Virus record (IMG/VR): IMGVR_UViG_3300044971_001528
Span: 1-36,171 of that record
DNA: 36,171 bases
From: a virus
Strand: one strand, 5' to 3'
The notes under the pieces were generated by a model. The model did not search any database. It was given only the letters and a program-made list of their open reading frames with translations, and was not told the origin of the DNA. Position 1 is the stretch's first letter. The number at the start of each line of letters is the position of its first letter. Below are positions 7,263 to 18,213 of this stretch, one piece after another. A program made the position numbers and the translations under genes.

Positions 7263-7471
7263 TCTACGTTGGACTATTAACGCCGGAACAGGCAGAGGAA
7301 ATAAACGGCAAGGAATACGCGCCGGATTCATTTTATAATGTCATTACAGATTTCAACGAAAATTTCGTCATAAGTACGGAAGAAATTGACAATACGACAA
7401 ATCCTCTTTATCTTTGGGTCAAAAATTTACCTTTGATTGAATACATTCCTAAACAATTAGATTTTCAGTAA
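7259..7471 (+). CDS. Small hypothetical protein in lysis cluster
   Basis: 70 residues, acidic, no signal or membrane segment (MIYVGLLTPEQAEEINGKEY at the start; NPLYLWVKNLPLIEYIPKQL near the end). It overlaps the endolysin by four bases (ATGA) and shares the base of TAATG with the holin-like gene, so it is made together with lysis proteins. I do not recognise a family. Regulation of lysis timing is one possibility, based on position only. Confidence 0.6.
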   Translation: MIYVGLLTPEQAEEINGKEYAPDSFYNVITDFNENFVISTEEIDNTTNPLYLWVKNLPLIEYIPKQLDFQ

Positions 7472-7800
7472 TGGATAATAACACAATTATAGATTTAACG
7501 GCGGCCACAGGTTTGTTTCTTTTTACCGGAGCAGAAGTTGGTTTAGATTCTACACTTTTCGAAATTATATCTAAGTTTGGCGTGGTTGCGGTTTTATGGT
7601 TCTGGCTTAGAGATATGAAAATCCAAATGAAAGATCAGCTTACAACCTTTAGCACAGAAACGGAAAAACTAAGAATTGAACATCAAAGTAACTTGAAAGA
7701 TATTAGCGACATTCACAAAGACTTTCGCGACCGTATGGAAAAACAAATAACGGTAAAGGATGAACAGATAAAAACCCTTCAGGACAAACTCAAAGATTGA
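7471..7800 (+). CDS. Holin-like membrane protein with coiled coil
   Basis: 109 residues. One hydrophobic segment (FEIISKFGVVAVLWFWL, residues about 28-46) is followed by a long charged, probably coiled-coil tail rich in Lys and Glu (MKIQMKDQLTTF, LRIEHQSNLKDISDIHKDF, IKTLQDKLKD). One membrane span plus a charged tail is the architecture of BhlA/UviB-type holins. It is the last gene of the structural/lysis operon, immediately before a strong terminator. Length and context fit, but a spanin-like or anchoring role is not excluded. Confidence 0.6.
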   Translation: MDNNTIIDLTAATGLFLFTGAEVGLDSTLFEIISKFGVVAVLWFWLRDMKIQMKDQLTTFSTETEKLRIEHQSNLKDISDIHKDFRDRMEKQITVKDEQIKTLQDKLKD

Positions 7801-9112: not shown

Positions 9113-9542
9113 CATAAGAATAAGCGCAACAAGTAGAGACTTTATATTCAGGATTGCCACGCCCGTAAGTGTGGCAACCCCTAATCTAATCGTAAGTGAT
9201 GCAAAAGGAAATAATATCTTAGTACAGGTAACCTTAAAACAACAACTTAATCAATATTTAGAACGGTTATCAAAGGATTTTAAATGTAACAAGTCCGAAA
9301 CGCTAACGGCGATAATTGAAACCTTTGCAACCTCCGGAATAAAGATTGATGAACTGTTACAGGTTACTTATTTCGCTAAGGAATTTAATCCTCCTGGCTC
9401 ACTAAAATTGAAGCAGAGTTCTATTTGTGCGGCTTTGTTAATGTATCTATCAAAATTAAATTTAAACGCCTCAGAATGGCAGATTTTAAAAGATACGGCC
9501 GAAGAACTCAGAGGACAAAAACGAAAATATAACAGGAAATGA
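9102..9542 (+). CDS. Hypothetical protein, possible DNA-associated
   Basis: 146 residues, basic at the C-terminus (GQKRKYNRK). It overlaps the ERF gene by 11 bases and the next gene by four. The middle (QQLNQYLERLSKDFKCNKSETLTAIIETFA) looks helical and resembles a ribbon-helix-helix-type arrangement, but I cannot confirm that. The exact start is uncertain, since the first 30 residues are atypical and span a DNA inverted repeat at 9154-9177. Operon position next to a recombinase suggests a DNA-metabolism accessory. Confidence 0.5.
   Translation: MRINIRISATSRDFIFRIATPVSVATPNLIVSDAKGNNILVQVTLKQQLNQYLERLSKDFKCNKSETLTAIIETFATSGIKIDELLQVTYFAKEFNPPGSLKLKQSSICAALLMYLSKLNLNASEWQILKDTAEELRGQKRKYNRK
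9154..9177 (+). repeat. Inverted repeat inside coding sequence
   Basis: TTGCCAC (9154-9160) and GTGGCAA (9171-9177) are perfectly complementary around a 10-nt loop. No U-tract follows, so it is not a terminator. It could be a protein site or an mRNA hairpin affecting the start region of the 9102 gene, or chance. Confidence 0.4.
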
Positions 9543-10159
9543 AAACAATATTTATGATTTTGAGCGGTTGTTTTCTTTATTGCACCGCTTATTTAGAATT
9601 TAACCCTAAAATTGACAAAAAATGTCAAGTTATTAAGCCACAAAAAACGGTTTTTAAGACAGTTTTACAAGATAGTGCGGTAAATACTACCAACGTGACA
9701 CAAAACGCGCTAAAAACGGACAATAAAAGCAAATTTGAGGCATATATCGAAAGGTTTACAAAGGTTGCGCTAATCGAACAGGACAAATTTGGCATTCCGG
9801 CATCCATTACTCTGGCACAGGGTATAATTGAAAGCGCAGCCGGACAAAGTAAGATGGCGATTAAAGATAATAATCACTTCGGTATTAAATGTTATTCAAA
9901 ATGTATCGGTTGCCGGTGTGCTAATTACGCGGATGACGACATTTATGATATGTTTAGAATCTTTGATACAGCGTGGGAATCTTACCGGGAACATTCTAAA
10001 ATTTTGCTCAATGACCGTTACAAAAGTTGTTTTAAATCTAAAGATTACAAGCACTGGGCTAAGGAATTACAGCGCTGCGGATATGCAACCTCGAAACGTT
10101 ACGAAAAGAATTTAATCAGTATTATTGAAACTTATAAACTTTATAAATTAGACAAATGA
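9539..10159 (+). CDS. Secreted N-acetylglucosaminidase, probable lipoprotein
   Basis: 206 residues. The N-terminus (MKTIFMILSGCFLYC) has a short hydrophobic stretch ending in LSGC, a lipobox candidate with Cys11. After a linker, residues about 65-205 form a glucosaminidase (lysozyme-subfamily) domain: GIPASITLAQGIIESAAGQS with probable catalytic Glu98, then NNHFGIKC, the YREHSKIL helix and the C-terminal CGYATSKRYEKNLISII. It would cut the glycan backbone of peptidoglycan. An early-region, membrane-anchored version is odd for an endolysin; superinfection or wall-remodelling roles are possible. Overlaps both neighbours by four bases. Confidence 0.8.
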   Translation: MKTIFMILSGCFLYCTAYLEFNPKIDKKCQVIKPQKTVFKTVLQDSAVNTTNVTQNALKTDNKSKFEAYIERFTKVALIEQDKFGIPASITLAQGIIESAAGQSKMAIKDNNHFGIKCYSKCIGCRCANYADDDIYDMFRIFDTAWESYREHSKILLNDRYKSCFKSKDYKHWAKELQRCGYATSKRYEKNLISIIETYKLYKLDK

Positions 10160-12378: not shown

Positions 12379-14568
12379 ATGACAGAGTACTTAGAATTTT
12401 TAAAGAAAAAACAAAAAACTCAGGAATTATCTGGTTTTGATGTTAATGAAAATCAATTGAACACTAATTTGTTTAATTTCCAAAAACACATTGTAAAAAA
12501 AGCGTTAAAAGTTGGTAAATATGCAATATTTGCTGATTGTGGATTAGGTAAAACTTTAATGCAACTTGAATGGGCAAATCAAGTTTCTAAATTTACTCAA
12601 AAGCCTGTTTTAATATTAGCGCCTTTGGCAGTTTCAGGGCAAACAATTAAAGAGGGTTCTAAATTTGGAATTGAAGTTGTTAAATATACTGGATTAAATA
12701 ATCCAATTCAAATTAGCAATTATGAACAACTTGAAAATATAAACTGTGAATTATTTTCAGGAATAGTTTTAGATGAAAGTAGTATTTTAAAAAATTTTAC
12801 TGGCGTTTATAAACGTTTAATAATAGATAAATTTTATAATACTAATTATAAATTAGCCTGTACTGCCACTCCTGCGCCTAATGATCTTAATGAAATAGGG
12901 AATCACTCAGAATTTTTAAGCGTAATGGATGCAAATGACATGAGAATGAGATGGTTTGTAAGAGATGAAGGAATGAACAATTATAGATTAAAAGGTCATG
13001 CTGAAAGTGATTTTTATTCATGGATAGCATCTTGGGCAAGTGTTTTGAGAAGTCCTAATGATATAGGTTTTAAAGCTAATGGTTATGATTTACCGTCTTT
13101 GAATTACTTTGAAAAAATGATTGAAACTAATAAAAAAGATAACGGTAAATTATTCAATGATACTTCAGTAAATGCAACTGAATTTAATAAAGAATTAAGG
13201 CTAACTTTAATACCAAGATTAGAATCAGTAGCTGAAATAGTTAATAAATCAACTGAAAATTTTATTATTTGGGTTAATCAAAATGAAGAAGAGGAAAAAC
13301 TATTGTCTTTGATTCCAGATGCAAAAGCGGTTAGAGGTAGTGAAAATCCTGATGCAAAAGAAAAAAAGTTAATAGGTTTTGGGAATAATGAATTTAGAGT
13401 TTTAATCACAAAAAAGAAAATAGCTCAATTTGGTTTAAATTACCAAAATTGCAGGAATCAAATATTTGCAGCTTTAGATTTTAGCTTTGAAGGTTTATAT
13501 CAAGCAATTAGAAGGAGTTATAGGTTTGGCCAAAAGAATGAAGTTAATATTTATCTGATTACAACAGATACAATGACAAATGTAATTGAAACAATAAATT
13601 ATAAACAATCACAATTTAATAGAATGATGGAAGAGATAACAAAACAAGTCAATGCAAAAGAATATAGTTTAGCTTTTGATTATAATAGAACTGAAGTTAA
13701 AACAGATAGATATCATATTATAAATGGAGATAGTTGCGATTTAATTAAAGAGGTCCCGGATAACTCAATTGATTTATCAGTTTTTAGTCCTCCATTCAGT
13801 ACTTTGTTTACTTATTCTGATAATATTAGAGATATGGGTAATTGCGTTTCAGATGAAGAGTTTTTTGAGCAGCAAGATTATTTATTAAAAGAGTTATATA
13901 GAATCATTAAACCCGGACGGTTAGTTTGTGTTCACACAAAAGACCTTGCAAGATATAAAAACAGTTCAGGTTTTAGTGGTATGTGGGATTTTACTGGAGA
14001 ATATCATAGGGCAATGGAAAAAGCAGGATTTAAATATCATTCAAAAGTTACTATTTGGATTGATCCAGTACTTGAGATGCAACGTACAAAAACACAAAGA
14101 TTACTTTATAAACAAGTAACTTCTGATTCAAGTTATACAGGAATAGGAATGCCAGAATATATTACTATATTTAGAAAGTGGGAAGGAGATGAAAAGGAAT
14201 GGACACCTATTACAAATAAGACAAAAGAAAATTTTGATCTTAACACTTGGCAAAAGTGGGCAAGTCCAGTATGGTCAGATATTAAACGTACTAATGTGTT
14301 AAATAACTATCAAGGCGCTAAGGGAGAAAAAGATGAAAAGCATATTTGCCCACTTCAATTGGATATTATTGAACGCTGCATAGCTTTATGGAGCAATAAA
14401 GGCGAAACTATATTTACTCCATTTTTAGGAATAGGTAGTGAAGTTTATCAGGCTTTAAAGATGGAACGTAAAGGAATAGGTTTTGAATTAAAAGAGTCTT
14501 ATTTTGAGATGGCTAAAAAGAACCTTAAAGATATTTTGATGCAGAAAAACCAAACATCTTTATTTTAA
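12379..14568 (+). CDS. SNF2-type helicase fused to DNA methyltransferase
   Basis: 729 residues. Residues about 25-430 are a superfamily 2 helicase: DCGLGKT (53-59, Walker A), LDESS (131-135, motif II with Ser-Ser in place of the usual Ala-His), TATPAPNDL (162-170, motif III) and RRSYRFGQ (378-385, motif VI, as in SNF2 ATPases). Residues about 445-729 are a beta-class-order methyltransferase: SPPF (470-473, motif IV, the form usual in N4-cytosine enzymes), HICPLQ, then FTPFLGIGS (679-687, motif I) and GIGFEL. The pairing suggests DNA translocation coupled to modification, protecting phage DNA or altering replication. No nuclease domain is visible, so this is not a complete restriction enzyme. 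By eye more AT-rich than flanking genes; likely acquired. Confidence 0.87.
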   Translation: MTEYLEFLKKKQKTQELSGFDVNENQLNTNLFNFQKHIVKKALKVGKYAIFADCGLGKTLMQLEWANQVSKFTQKPVLILAPLAVSGQTIKEGSKFGIEVVKYTGLNNPIQISNYEQLENINCELFSGIVLDESSILKNFTGVYKRLIIDKFYNTNYKLACTATPAPNDLNEIGNHSEFLSVMDANDMRMRWFVRDEGMNNYRLKGHAESDFYSWIASWASVLRSPNDIGFKANGYDLPSLNYFEKMIETNKKDNGKLFNDTSVNATEFNKELRLTLIPRLESVAEIVNKSTENFIIWVNQNEEEEKLLSLIPDAKAVRGSENPDAKEKKLIGFGNNEFRVLITKKKIAQFGLNYQNCRNQIFAALDFSFEGLYQAIRRSYRFGQKNEVNIYLITTDTMTNVIETINYKQSQFNRMMEEITKQVNAKEYSLAFDYNRTEVKTDRYHIINGDSCDLIKEVPDNSIDLSVFSPPFSTLFTYSDNIRDMGNCVSDEEFFEQQDYLLKELYRIIKPGRLVCVHTKDLARYKNSSGFSGMWDFTGEYHRAMEKAGFKYHSKVTIWIDPVLEMQRTKTQRLLYKQVTSDSSYTGIGMPEYITIFRKWEGDEKEWTPITNKTKENFDLNTWQKWASPVWSDIKRTNVLNNYQGAKGEKDEKHICPLQLDIIERCIALWSNKGETIFTPFLGIGSEVYQALKMERKGIGFELKESYFEMAKKNLKDILMQKNQTSLF

Positions 14569-14759
14569 TGAAAGTAATTTACAATGTCAGCAAAACCAAT
14601 TATAGCATCGTTGCGAAGTTGTATGGAAGCGTTACTATCGACAAGGTTGTTTATATTTACCTACACCAACACGATGCTTTAATCCGGCGCGACTTATACT
14701 CGGCTTATAAAAATTCAAAAAGTTTTGAAGATTTTTTGTTGTTAGTTGCTGATAAATAG
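14568..14759 (+). CDS. Small hypothetical protein
   Basis: 63 residues (KTNYSIVAKLYGSVTIDKVV, then FEDFLLLVADK). It shares one base with the stop codon of the helicase-methyltransferase (TAATG), so it is translationally coupled to it and may be a partner. Base composition is less AT-rich than the upstream gene. No family recognised. Confidence 0.6.
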   Translation: MKVIYNVSKTNYSIVAKLYGSVTIDKVVYIYLHQHDALIRRDLYSAYKNSKSFEDFLLLVADK

Positions 14760-14778
14760 AATATTATTACTATATTTG
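14746..14778 (+). promoter_or_regulatory. Promoter of the structured RNA
   Basis: TTG (14746-14748), a 22-nt spacer and TATATTTG (14771-14778) fit the Bacteroidota promoter with a slightly long spacer. Transcription would start near 14784, at the 5' side of the structured RNA. It lacks the operator arms of P1-P4, so it should be regulated differently. Confidence 0.6.
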
Positions 14779-14783
14779 TGCAT

Positions 14784-14911
14784 GGAATAATTTTCACGAT
14801 TTGTTTTTAGTGTAGTGGCTAAAGGTAAATCGAATAAATACTAACATAAACATTTTACCCGTATCAATTCAAAGGAGCCCACTACCTCCGGCGAATTGTT
14901 ATGGGTTTTTT
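14784..14911 (+). ncRNA. Structured RNA with complementary (kissing) hairpin loops
   Basis: No ORF fits here. Hairpin 1: 14797-14810 pairs with 14819-14832 over 14 uninterrupted base pairs (three G-U) and an 8-nt loop TGTAGTGG (14811-14818). Hairpin 2: 14857-14870 pairs with 14893-14906 with one mismatch, then an inner stem GGAG/CTCC (14874-14877/14886-14889) and an 8-nt loop CCCACTAC (14878-14885). The loop bases GTAGTGG (14812-14818) and CCACTAC (14879-14885) are perfectly complementary over 7 bp. Hairpin 2 ends in six T and is a terminator. It has its own promoter upstream and an ORF beginning 14 nt after the T-run, so it is either a phage small RNA of about 128 nt or a leader that attenuates the replication operon. 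It matches no family I can identify. Confidence 0.72.
14857..14911 (+). terminator. Terminator formed by hairpin 2 of the structured RNA
   Basis: ACCCGTA...CAATTC (14857-14870) pairs with GAATTG...ATGGGT (14893-14906), followed by TTTTTT (14906-14911). The unusually large apical part with its own stem-loop suggests it is more than a terminator. It stands directly before the gene at 14926. Confidence 0.8.
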
Positions 14912-14925
14912 AATTTTATAGAGTT

Positions 14926-15171
14926 ATGGAATTAAAGTATGGAATTTTTAGGATTGCAGAAATTGGTAAAGGTTACTATAATCATTCAGTTGATAAATTA
15001 GAATTTTTAGAAAATAGACAACTTTGGAATAACGAAATTGATGCAATTGATTTTATACCTGACGAACCTGGTAAATATGTGGTTTTACCTATTTTTATAA
15101 GAGAAAAAAAAAAGGTAGATAATTTTGATGAAACTTTAGACAAGTTTATAAATGCTTTAAAAAAAATATAG
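14926..15171 (+). CDS. Small hypothetical protein downstream of the structured RNA
   Basis: 81 residues (MELKYGIFRIAEIGKGYYNH at the start, a PDEPGKYVVLPIFI strand region, charged C-terminal helix). First gene after the RNA's terminator, so its translation needs either read-through or another promoter. Three bases separate it from the replication initiator gene. Function unknown; if the RNA is a cis-regulator, this is its first target. Confidence 0.62.
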   Translation: MELKYGIFRIAEIGKGYYNHSVDKLEFLENRQLWNNEIDAIDFIPDEPGKYVVLPIFIREKKKVDNFDETLDKFINALKKI

Positions 15172-17449: not shown

Positions 17450-17758
17450 ATGTTAAAATTTTTTAGACCTCGCAATAATTCAAAAGAACCTTTAATTGTA
17501 AAAGGTTGCGAATATTACAAATACCACACAGGCCTAAACGGTAATGTGGCCTATTATTCAAAAGCAAAATTTGGATATAGAGAAATTGTAATCGAAATAA
17601 TAAAACTGCCAGATCTTAGATGGGTTTTTCATGTAGAATGCCATGATAAAATGGTACTCGATAGCCGTTTAGGAAATTGTTTCTATGATAGCGCAGAAAA
17701 GGCACACTCAGCAATGTTAAACGCTTTATCAGACAAATTCAATCCGCAAGTAATATGA
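17450..17758 (+). CDS. Hypothetical protein
   Basis: 102 residues (VKGCEYYKYHTGLNGNVAYY, LPDLRWVFHVECHDKMV, then SAEKAHSAMLNAL). Probably a compact alpha/beta protein. Three bases follow the methyltransferase stop and four overlap the glucosaminidase start. No family recognised. Confidence 0.6.
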   Translation: MLKFFRPRNNSKEPLIVKGCEYYKYHTGLNGNVAYYSKAKFGYREIVIEIIKLPDLRWVFHVECHDKMVLDSRLGNCFYDSAEKAHSAMLNALSDKFNPQVI

Positions 17759-18213
17759 CACTAATCTATAAAATCGCGCTCGTTCTATTCCTACAACCGC
17801 AAAACCAAACGGAATACATAACAAAGTATTATCCGGTGGCCAAACTTTGCGAGGTTATCTATGGCGTGCCTACAAGCGTACAATTGGCGCAGGCGCTTGC
17901 AGAATCCGGCGGCGGTGTATCTTATATCGGTAAACATAGCAATAACCATTTCGGCATTAAATACTATCCAGAGGCTTTTCGCGGCGATTGTTTTACAGAC
18001 CGATCCGGTGGGGAATGGCGCAAATATAACTCAGTTGCTGAAGGCTATTTTGACCATGCGGAATTTCTAACCTTCCACTATAAACACGCGACCGGAAAAG
18101 ATTATAAATATTGGCAGATGCTCAGAGGATACGGCGCCGGTAATTACTGGCATCATATCGGCAAAATCATTGAACACTATAAACTCAATAAACTTGATCT
18201 ACATAGGAATTGA
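17755..18213 (+). CDS. Second glucosaminidase-like peptidoglycan hydrolase
   Basis: 152 residues. A short N-terminal hydrophobic stretch (IYKIALVLFL) could be a signal or membrane segment. The domain matches the one at 9539: YGVPTSVQLAQALAESGGGV with probable catalytic Glu50, NNHFGIKYY, AEGYFDHAEFL, and the terminal GYGAGNYWHHIGKIIEHYKL. It lacks the long linker of the 9539 protein. Placed in the replication region, not with the holin. Both enzymes end with YKL-x-KLD, a sign they are homologues. Confidence 0.75.
   Translation: MTLIYKIALVLFLQPQNQTEYITKYYPVAKLCEVIYGVPTSVQLAQALAESGGGVSYIGKHSNNHFGIKYYPEAFRGDCFTDRSGGEWRKYNSVAEGYFDHAEFLTFHYKHATGKDYKYWQMLRGYGAGNYWHHIGKIIEHYKLNKLDLHRN

Follow-up and report, generated by a model that had tools for sequence, protein, structure and literature searches.

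The locus examined here raises the question of whether two hairpins with complementary loops, lying ahead of the replication genes of a phage, form a kissing-loop element at the RNA level and, if so, how such an RNA would act. The window, meaning the whole stretch of DNA that was analysed, is IMG/VR virus record IMGVR_UViG_3300044971_001528 (36,171 bases). Its gene set is that of a tailed phage and includes a terminase large subunit, a head maturation protease, a tape measure protein, an Erf-type annealing protein and an O-like replication initiator. All coordinates in the original prediction (stems, loops, -7 box and T-tract) agreed with the sequence, and the perfect complementarity of GTAGTGG and CCACTAC over 7 bp, with both segments in apical loops, was confirmed. 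The -7 box was compared with the TAnnTTTG consensus for Bacteroidota (PMC7366714). The features of the region are as follows.

14771-14778, + strand: -7 promoter box, TATATTTG, which fits TAnnTTTG and is of the Bacteroidota sigma-ABfr type
14797-14832, + strand: hairpin 1, with a stem (14797-14810/14819-14832) of 14 uninterrupted pairs, including 3 G-U
14811-14818, + strand: loop of hairpin 1, TGTAGTGG, 8 nt
14812-14818, + strand: kissing sequence 1, GTAGTGG, the complement of 14879-14885
14833-14856, + strand: A/U-rich linker of 24 nt, a length that by a rough estimate fits cis kissing in the window's clade
14857-14906, + strand: hairpin 2, the terminator hairpin, with an outer stem (14857-14870/14893-14906) in which 13 of 14 positions pair
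14874-14877/14886-14889, + strand: inner stem GGAG/CTCC of hairpin 2, preceded by an internal loop AAA/GGC
14878-14885, + strand: loop of hairpin 2, CCCACTAC, 8 nt
14879-14885, + strand: kissing sequence 2, CCACTAC, within the terminator loop, the exact complement of 14812-14818
14906-14911, + strand: U-tract of the intrinsic terminator, TTTTTT, directly 3' of the GGG of hairpin 2
14926-15171, + strand: 81-aa ORF with no assigned function, starting 14 nt past the RNA and kept downstream of it in loci L004 and L005
15175-16050, + strand: O-like/DnaD-like replication initiation protein (phrog_11233, E 1.9e-34; phrog_6493, E 5.6e-23)

The O-like gene supports the predicted position ahead of the replication region. 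Replication genes had been placed 14 nt after the RNA, which holds for the region but not for the nearest gene: the ORF at 14926-15171 had no Pfam or PHROG match, and the initiator is the gene that follows it. No link between the RNA and a replication origin was found in the window or in the analysis of the relatives. Just 5' of the RNA is a 63-aa ORF (14568-14759), a counterpart of which is kept in L004 (9269-9459). In the window this ORF is preceded by a single 729-aa ORF (12379-14568) made up of an SNF2-type helicase part and an N6/N4 DNA methyltransferase, whereas the helicase-methyltransferase gene is absent from that position in L004. Two other window ORFs (9539-10159 and 17755-18213) resemble glucosaminidase-type cell-wall hydrolases by eye (ITLAQGIIESAAGQSKMA and QLAQALAESGGGVSYIGKHSNNHFGIKYY, respectively).

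Both hairpins were predicted by RNAfold (-35.5 kcal/mol, z = -4.07). The two-hairpin architecture occurred once in the window and in none of 60 dinucleotide shuffles. In 2.9 Mb of fetched loci, a set chosen partly for motif resemblance and for which the cross-locus test described below is the cleaner control, there were 78 strict matches compared with 2 in a Markov control, or 68 compared with 0 when a TAnnTTTG box was also required.

The first relatives were fetched by protein similarity to the adjoining replication gene and not by the RNA. The same arrangement was found 5' of the replication gene in these relatives, with different letters in the loops. The window pair GTAGTGG/CCACTAC is replaced by GTCGGAG/CTCCGAC in L004 and by GTGGACG/CGTCCAC in L005, and the loops GTACCAG, GTAGCAG, GTGGTAG, GTAGGAG, GCACTAC and GTAGAGG were found at other loci. 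Between the window and L004 the linker and the outer part of hairpin 2 are nearly identical, whereas the loops and the whole of hairpin 1 differ. In L004, moreover, the -7 box and hairpin 1 are separated by approximately 140 nt (9479-9620) containing extra hairpins, one of them G+C-rich and terminator-like (GGCAGTCGGGCAACGTTCGGCTGCC); the corresponding spacing in the window is about 18 nt. A T-run after hairpin 2 was present also in family members that were found without demanding one.

Hairpin-2 flanks common to three relatives, TAGAG...CTCGAAA, formed the basis of a loop-blind pattern (TAGAG-N7/8-CTCGAAA-N3/25-GGNTTTTT) with which IMG/VR was searched, leaving the loop letters and hairpin 1 unconstrained. 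At least 120 rows were recovered, with 95 distinct stretches among the matches listed. In 89 of these 95, a segment exactly complementary to the final seven letters of the loop was found upstream, 40-57 nt 5' of TAGAG. Five of the six complement-negative matches lacked the surrounding features and resemble chance matches rather than family members, and in the sixth (L132) seven positions pair, one of them as G-U. When each of the 85 listed loci with enough upstream sequence was compared with its own loop, a match was found in 79, but the rate fell to 0.5% with the loop of another locus. The loop-blind and cross-locus tests are the central, independent evidence for the kissing pair and, with the shuffles and the Markov control, they rule out a chance origin of the loop match. 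Picking hairpin 1 by stem score alone gave seven pairs in only 36 of 85 loci, a choice that is uninformative because hairpins of the A/T-rich background score best. Uncompensated loop changes in homologous phages, which the original prediction had singled out as evidence against the pairing, were not encountered: approximately 90 of 90 recognisable relatives among the loop-blind matches listed keep seven pairs, one with a G-U. Approximately 30 different loop 7-mers were present in the loci collected.

The loci were grouped into three clades. Clade A, the window type, has long stems, an internal loop AAA/GGC or AAA/GGA and an inner stem GGAG/CTCC or similar. Clade B has a hairpin 1 of only 4-6 bp and, within hairpin 2 (L060-L179), a nearly invariant AGUA-GAG...CUC-GAA(A), in which AGUA and GAA flank the GAG/CUC inner stem; these flanks look like a bulged-G (sarcin-ricin type) motif within the terminator hairpin. 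Clade C (L031 at 7400-7500, L027, L028, L030 and L052) has a straight hairpin 2 and a third, small hairpin in the linker, the letters of which vary by phage (GAACAAA..TTGTTC, GGACAAT..ATTGTTTC and GAGGAAA..TACCTC). In all clades the loops are 7-8 nt with seven letters paired, and hairpin 2 closes with a U-tract. Among the 95 matches listed, TAnnTTTG was found within 30 nt 5' of loop 1 in 78, compared with 3.6% of random 45-nt windows. The clade-B covariance model R1 recognised L038, L039, L053 and L059 and gave no convincing recognition in the window's clade. That the three clades share an ancestor is likely, judged from layout and position rather than from this model. A possible further relative lies 5' of a replication gene in Bacteroides uniformis phage C3_41T2LP (L054, 2424-2560; CGAGA-GGTGATAG-TCTCG), where the downstream hairpin region contains CTATCAC and has no U-tract directly after it.

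Covariation was examined in an alignment of 21 clade-B sequences, which were all complement-positive members. Standard pairs made up 96.4% of pair cells, compared with 72.3% after shuffling and at most 42% after sliding, and the covariation score of this alignment was 0.66 vs 0.18. In the kissing helix 7 of 7 pairs form in all sequences, with double changes at 5 of the 7 and no G-U, though this complete pairing is partly the result of selection because the members were drawn as complement-positive. The stems also covaried, with double changes at 5 of 5 pairs of the hairpin-1 stem and covariation at 8 of 9 pairs of the outer hairpin-2 stem. The proposal of a kissing-loop element at the RNA level is supported, and the loop pair covaries almost perfectly across relatives.

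The position of the RNA relative to the next gene was then considered. Among the matches listed, the distance from the U-tract to the next ATG on the same strand had a median of 9 nt and was 30 nt or less in 82 of 89, and in 94 of 95 the segment from loop 1 to the U-tract held no further TAnnTTTG (one match had it). Because the U-tract is close to the ATG and no second -7 box lies between, expression of the downstream gene probably needs read-through of the terminator, from the RNA's own promoter or one farther upstream. In L031 the genes upstream of the RNA are on the opposite strand and face the other way, so the block that follows is likely to be driven by the RNA's own box. The tight placement a few nucleotides ahead of the ATG favours a leader or attenuator over an unrelated sRNA gene. 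The sequence features of an attenuating leader, a promoter box, a leader and an intrinsic terminator directly ahead of an ORF, were found, and no alternative antiterminator helix in the linker was conserved or apparent by eye. The next genes include those for O-like replication proteins, NUMOD4/HNH and HNH/AP2 endonucleases, DUF6291 proteins and an N6/N4 methyltransferase, and at some loci no replication gene adjoins the RNA, an HNH/NUMOD4 gene being found instead. In L062, L146, L069 and many clade-B loci a NUMOD4/HNH homing-endonuclease gene very often lies a few nucleotides after the RNA, and L143 includes two RNA plus HNH-like units on one contig.

The reading that we prefer, though tentatively and at somewhat less than an even chance, is that of a leader attenuator or sRNA with a terminator locked by homotypic kissing and type-specific feedback by the released RNA. 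In phages of Bacteroidota the -7 box would start a leader RNA of approximately 90-130 nt, with hairpin 1 at its 5' end and hairpin 2, the intrinsic terminator, at its 3' end a few nucleotides ahead of where an early gene starts. Kissing of these hairpins would involve their 8-nt loops and 7 Watson-Crick pairs. Hairpin 1, made first by RNA polymerase, would then capture the emerging terminator loop, and this capture would fix the outcome, either termination with release of a stable short RNA or read-through into the early gene. Because the same two loops are present in it, the released RNA could act as a competitor for the kissing partner carried by nascent same-type leaders, and the result would be a dosage-dependent, type-specific feedback. 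Also in favour of this reading, L015 and L184 each carry two copies of the RNA, and each copy lies ahead of a different gene.

The alternative that survives best, which we nonetheless consider unlikely, is a stand-alone phage sRNA in which kissing merely folds or stabilises the molecule by locking the 5' hairpin to the terminator, the target is reached via another feature and the loop letters drift neutrally, pairing alone mattering. Both ends of the RNA are structured, and it has its own promoter box and terminator. Nearly the same RNA is found ahead of three different genes in L005, L013 and L015, so it moves independently of the gene that follows and is not tied to one product. However, such an sRNA has no need for constant placement 3-30 nt before an ATG, and no single-stranded segment that could serve as a seed is kept across clades. 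Coordinated changes in the loops on unchanged stems would also be hard to achieve via slow neutral compensation, though recombination could produce them.

Changes of this type were seen in three pairs of near-identical loci. L063 and L137 share 94% identity across approximately 350 nt that take in the downstream region; their promoter is the same and their stems are almost so, but they differ in loop 1 (CGT/AAC) and in loop 2 (ACG/GTT), and the linker letters differ too. The same kind of coordinated change was found in L093/L120 and L101/L127, and in each of the three pairs both loops differ at 2-3 of 7 positions, with little change to the stems or promoter. Phages with two copies of the RNA (L015, L143, L184 and near-copies; three phage types) had different loops in each copy, though three cases are too small a number to establish orthogonality. 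The matched loop pairs look as though they are exchanged or rapidly diversifying, and selection for loop specificity is suggested; loci that are nearly identical but have coordinately different loop pairs look like cases of type specificity. Crossovers in the shared stems would suffice to produce the loop swaps by recombination and, because the linker changes too, exchange between alleles can account for them with no need for selection on specificity. A broader proposal, and a doubtful one, is that this is a widespread RNA-only system of self-recognition between co-infecting phages, in which each early leader would carry a matched loop pair, terminated leader RNAs would act in trans on leaders of the same type only, and loop types would behave like incompatibility or immunity alleles in the way they diversify and recombine.

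Whether the loops would pair within one molecule or between two was considered using a rough model, in which cis kissing was sterically feasible in clade A and most of clade B. In clade C the middle hairpin shortens the linker and coaxial cis kissing was strained in the same rough model (ratio of approximately 0.7); there, the middle hairpin would need to open or the pairing would be in trans. A correlation between linker and helix length that was obtained at first proved to be artefactual, as A-U pairing had extended the stems into the linker and U-tract. The original prediction had raised an intermolecular dimer, and a homodimer or multimer like the rings of phi29-like pRNA, with hairpin 1 kissing hairpin 2 of the next molecule and the loop type deciding assembly, would be consistent with a loop pair that covaries with free sequence and with the strained geometry of clade C. 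We regard it as improbable, since the linkers of clade A and most of clade B allow cis kissing, which would outcompete dimers, and the neighbours are early or replication genes and not packaging genes; an ordinary terminase large subunit is encoded by the window phage.

Many of the stem pair cells in the clade-B alignment are G-U on the + strand, and these would become A-C mismatches on the other strand, which indicates that the functional molecule is the + strand RNA. A DNA-level element (a replication origin, cruciform or recombination site) mistaken for an RNA is thus very improbable despite the adjoining replication genes and a loop helix that is almost purely Watson-Crick, as the stem G-U pairs are found on one strand only, the -7 box and U-tract are consistently on that strand, and there are loci with no directly adjoining replication gene (HNH/NUMOD4).

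The RNA was also found in cultured phages, with loops GTGGAGG/CCTCCAC in Flavobacterium phages elemoE/F, GTGAGAG/CTCTCAA (six pairs) in elemoA-D and GTGGTGG/CCACCAC in Olleya phage Harreka_1. The elemoE and Harreka_1 RNAs have one compensated pair difference inside conserved flanks, and the -7 boxes of the elemo and Harreka_1 leaders read TATCTTTG or TATATTTG. BLASTN of single RNAs against cultured phages detected only the elemo and Olleya phages, and a scan of genome contigs found only three loci, which were distant and non-Bacteroidota. When the window and eight relatives were searched against Rfam (cmscan, 4227 models, release 15), no RNA matched the element at the gathering score, the only hits being tRNAs elsewhere in L031 and L053, and for 10 further relatives there was no match at E<=0.5. 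A resemblance of the window stretch to Rfam pntA was a chance match (E 0.65; 20.4 bits compared with a 54-bit cut-off). The scans of the window and relatives rule out a known Rfam family, which bears out the earlier view that the layout belongs to no named family, and no earlier description of the RNA was found in the literature searched, the coverage of which left many subscription papers outside.

The element appears to represent a structured RNA family, not described before, that many phages of Bacteroidota carry; little is known of how these phages regulate their genes. Covariation of a tertiary loop-loop helix is unusually clear here, with approximately 30 loop types, and matched loops with varying letters point to a previously undescribed RNA switch with type-specific recognition. 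Should termination be controlled by the kissing pair, the element would amount to a simple RNA switch, one in which compensating loop changes allow rewiring and which could be studied in the cultured Flavobacterium and Olleya phages.

Several known RNAs share parts of this layout. GOLLD and ROOL are phage-encoded RNAs of no known function with covarying kissing loops (PMC12286853), but they are hundreds of nucleotides long and form cages. The element described here is only approximately 100 nt, with two or three hairpins and its own terminator beside an ORF. Attenuating leaders and riboswitches, e.g. the purine riboswitch, also combine a leader, kissing loops and an intrinsic terminator ahead of an ORF. 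However, no conserved ligand-binding core is visible here, one of the kissing loops is the terminator's own and the loop letters are free. In ColE1 RNA I/RNA II and other plasmid copy-control kissing RNAs the loops kiss over approximately 7 nt, and the two partners are encoded on opposing strands of a single locus. The kissing length is similar here, loop changes could set specificity types and replication genes are adjacent, but antisense control of the ColE1 type was rejected as both loops are on one strand and in one predicted transcript, with a promoter box, a terminator and strand-specific G-U pairs.

The pRNA of the phi29 family is a phage RNA of approximately 120 nt in which two loops pair and covary while their sequence changes, as they do here. 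The ends of pRNA pair together, its loops pair between molecules over a few bp and its role is in packaging. In contrast, the 5' end region here forms a hairpin by itself, a separate terminator hairpin makes up the 3' end and the two ends are unpaired with each other, the pairing is 7 bp and the neighbours are replication or HNH genes; the pRNA family was therefore rejected. The c4 antisense RNA of phage P1 is a short RNA from the leader of a lytic gene that acts by pairing and premature termination, with type specificity. No homology to the C4 antisense RNA was detected by cmscan of all Rfam families in the window and relatives. By analogy, the phage RNA would work most like the CI RNA of P4 immunity, which is short and leader-derived and, by pairing type-specifically with leader sequences complementary to it, prematurely ends transcription of the phage replication genes (PMC4825925). 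As with P4 CI and C4, complementary segments, here of 7 nt, are found in one predicted leader transcript upstream of an O-like replication gene. Processing of a longer transcript yields the P4 CI RNA, and its partners are the separate seqA and seqC sites (PMC4825925), whereas the two partners here are each an apical loop, one of them in an intrinsic terminator.
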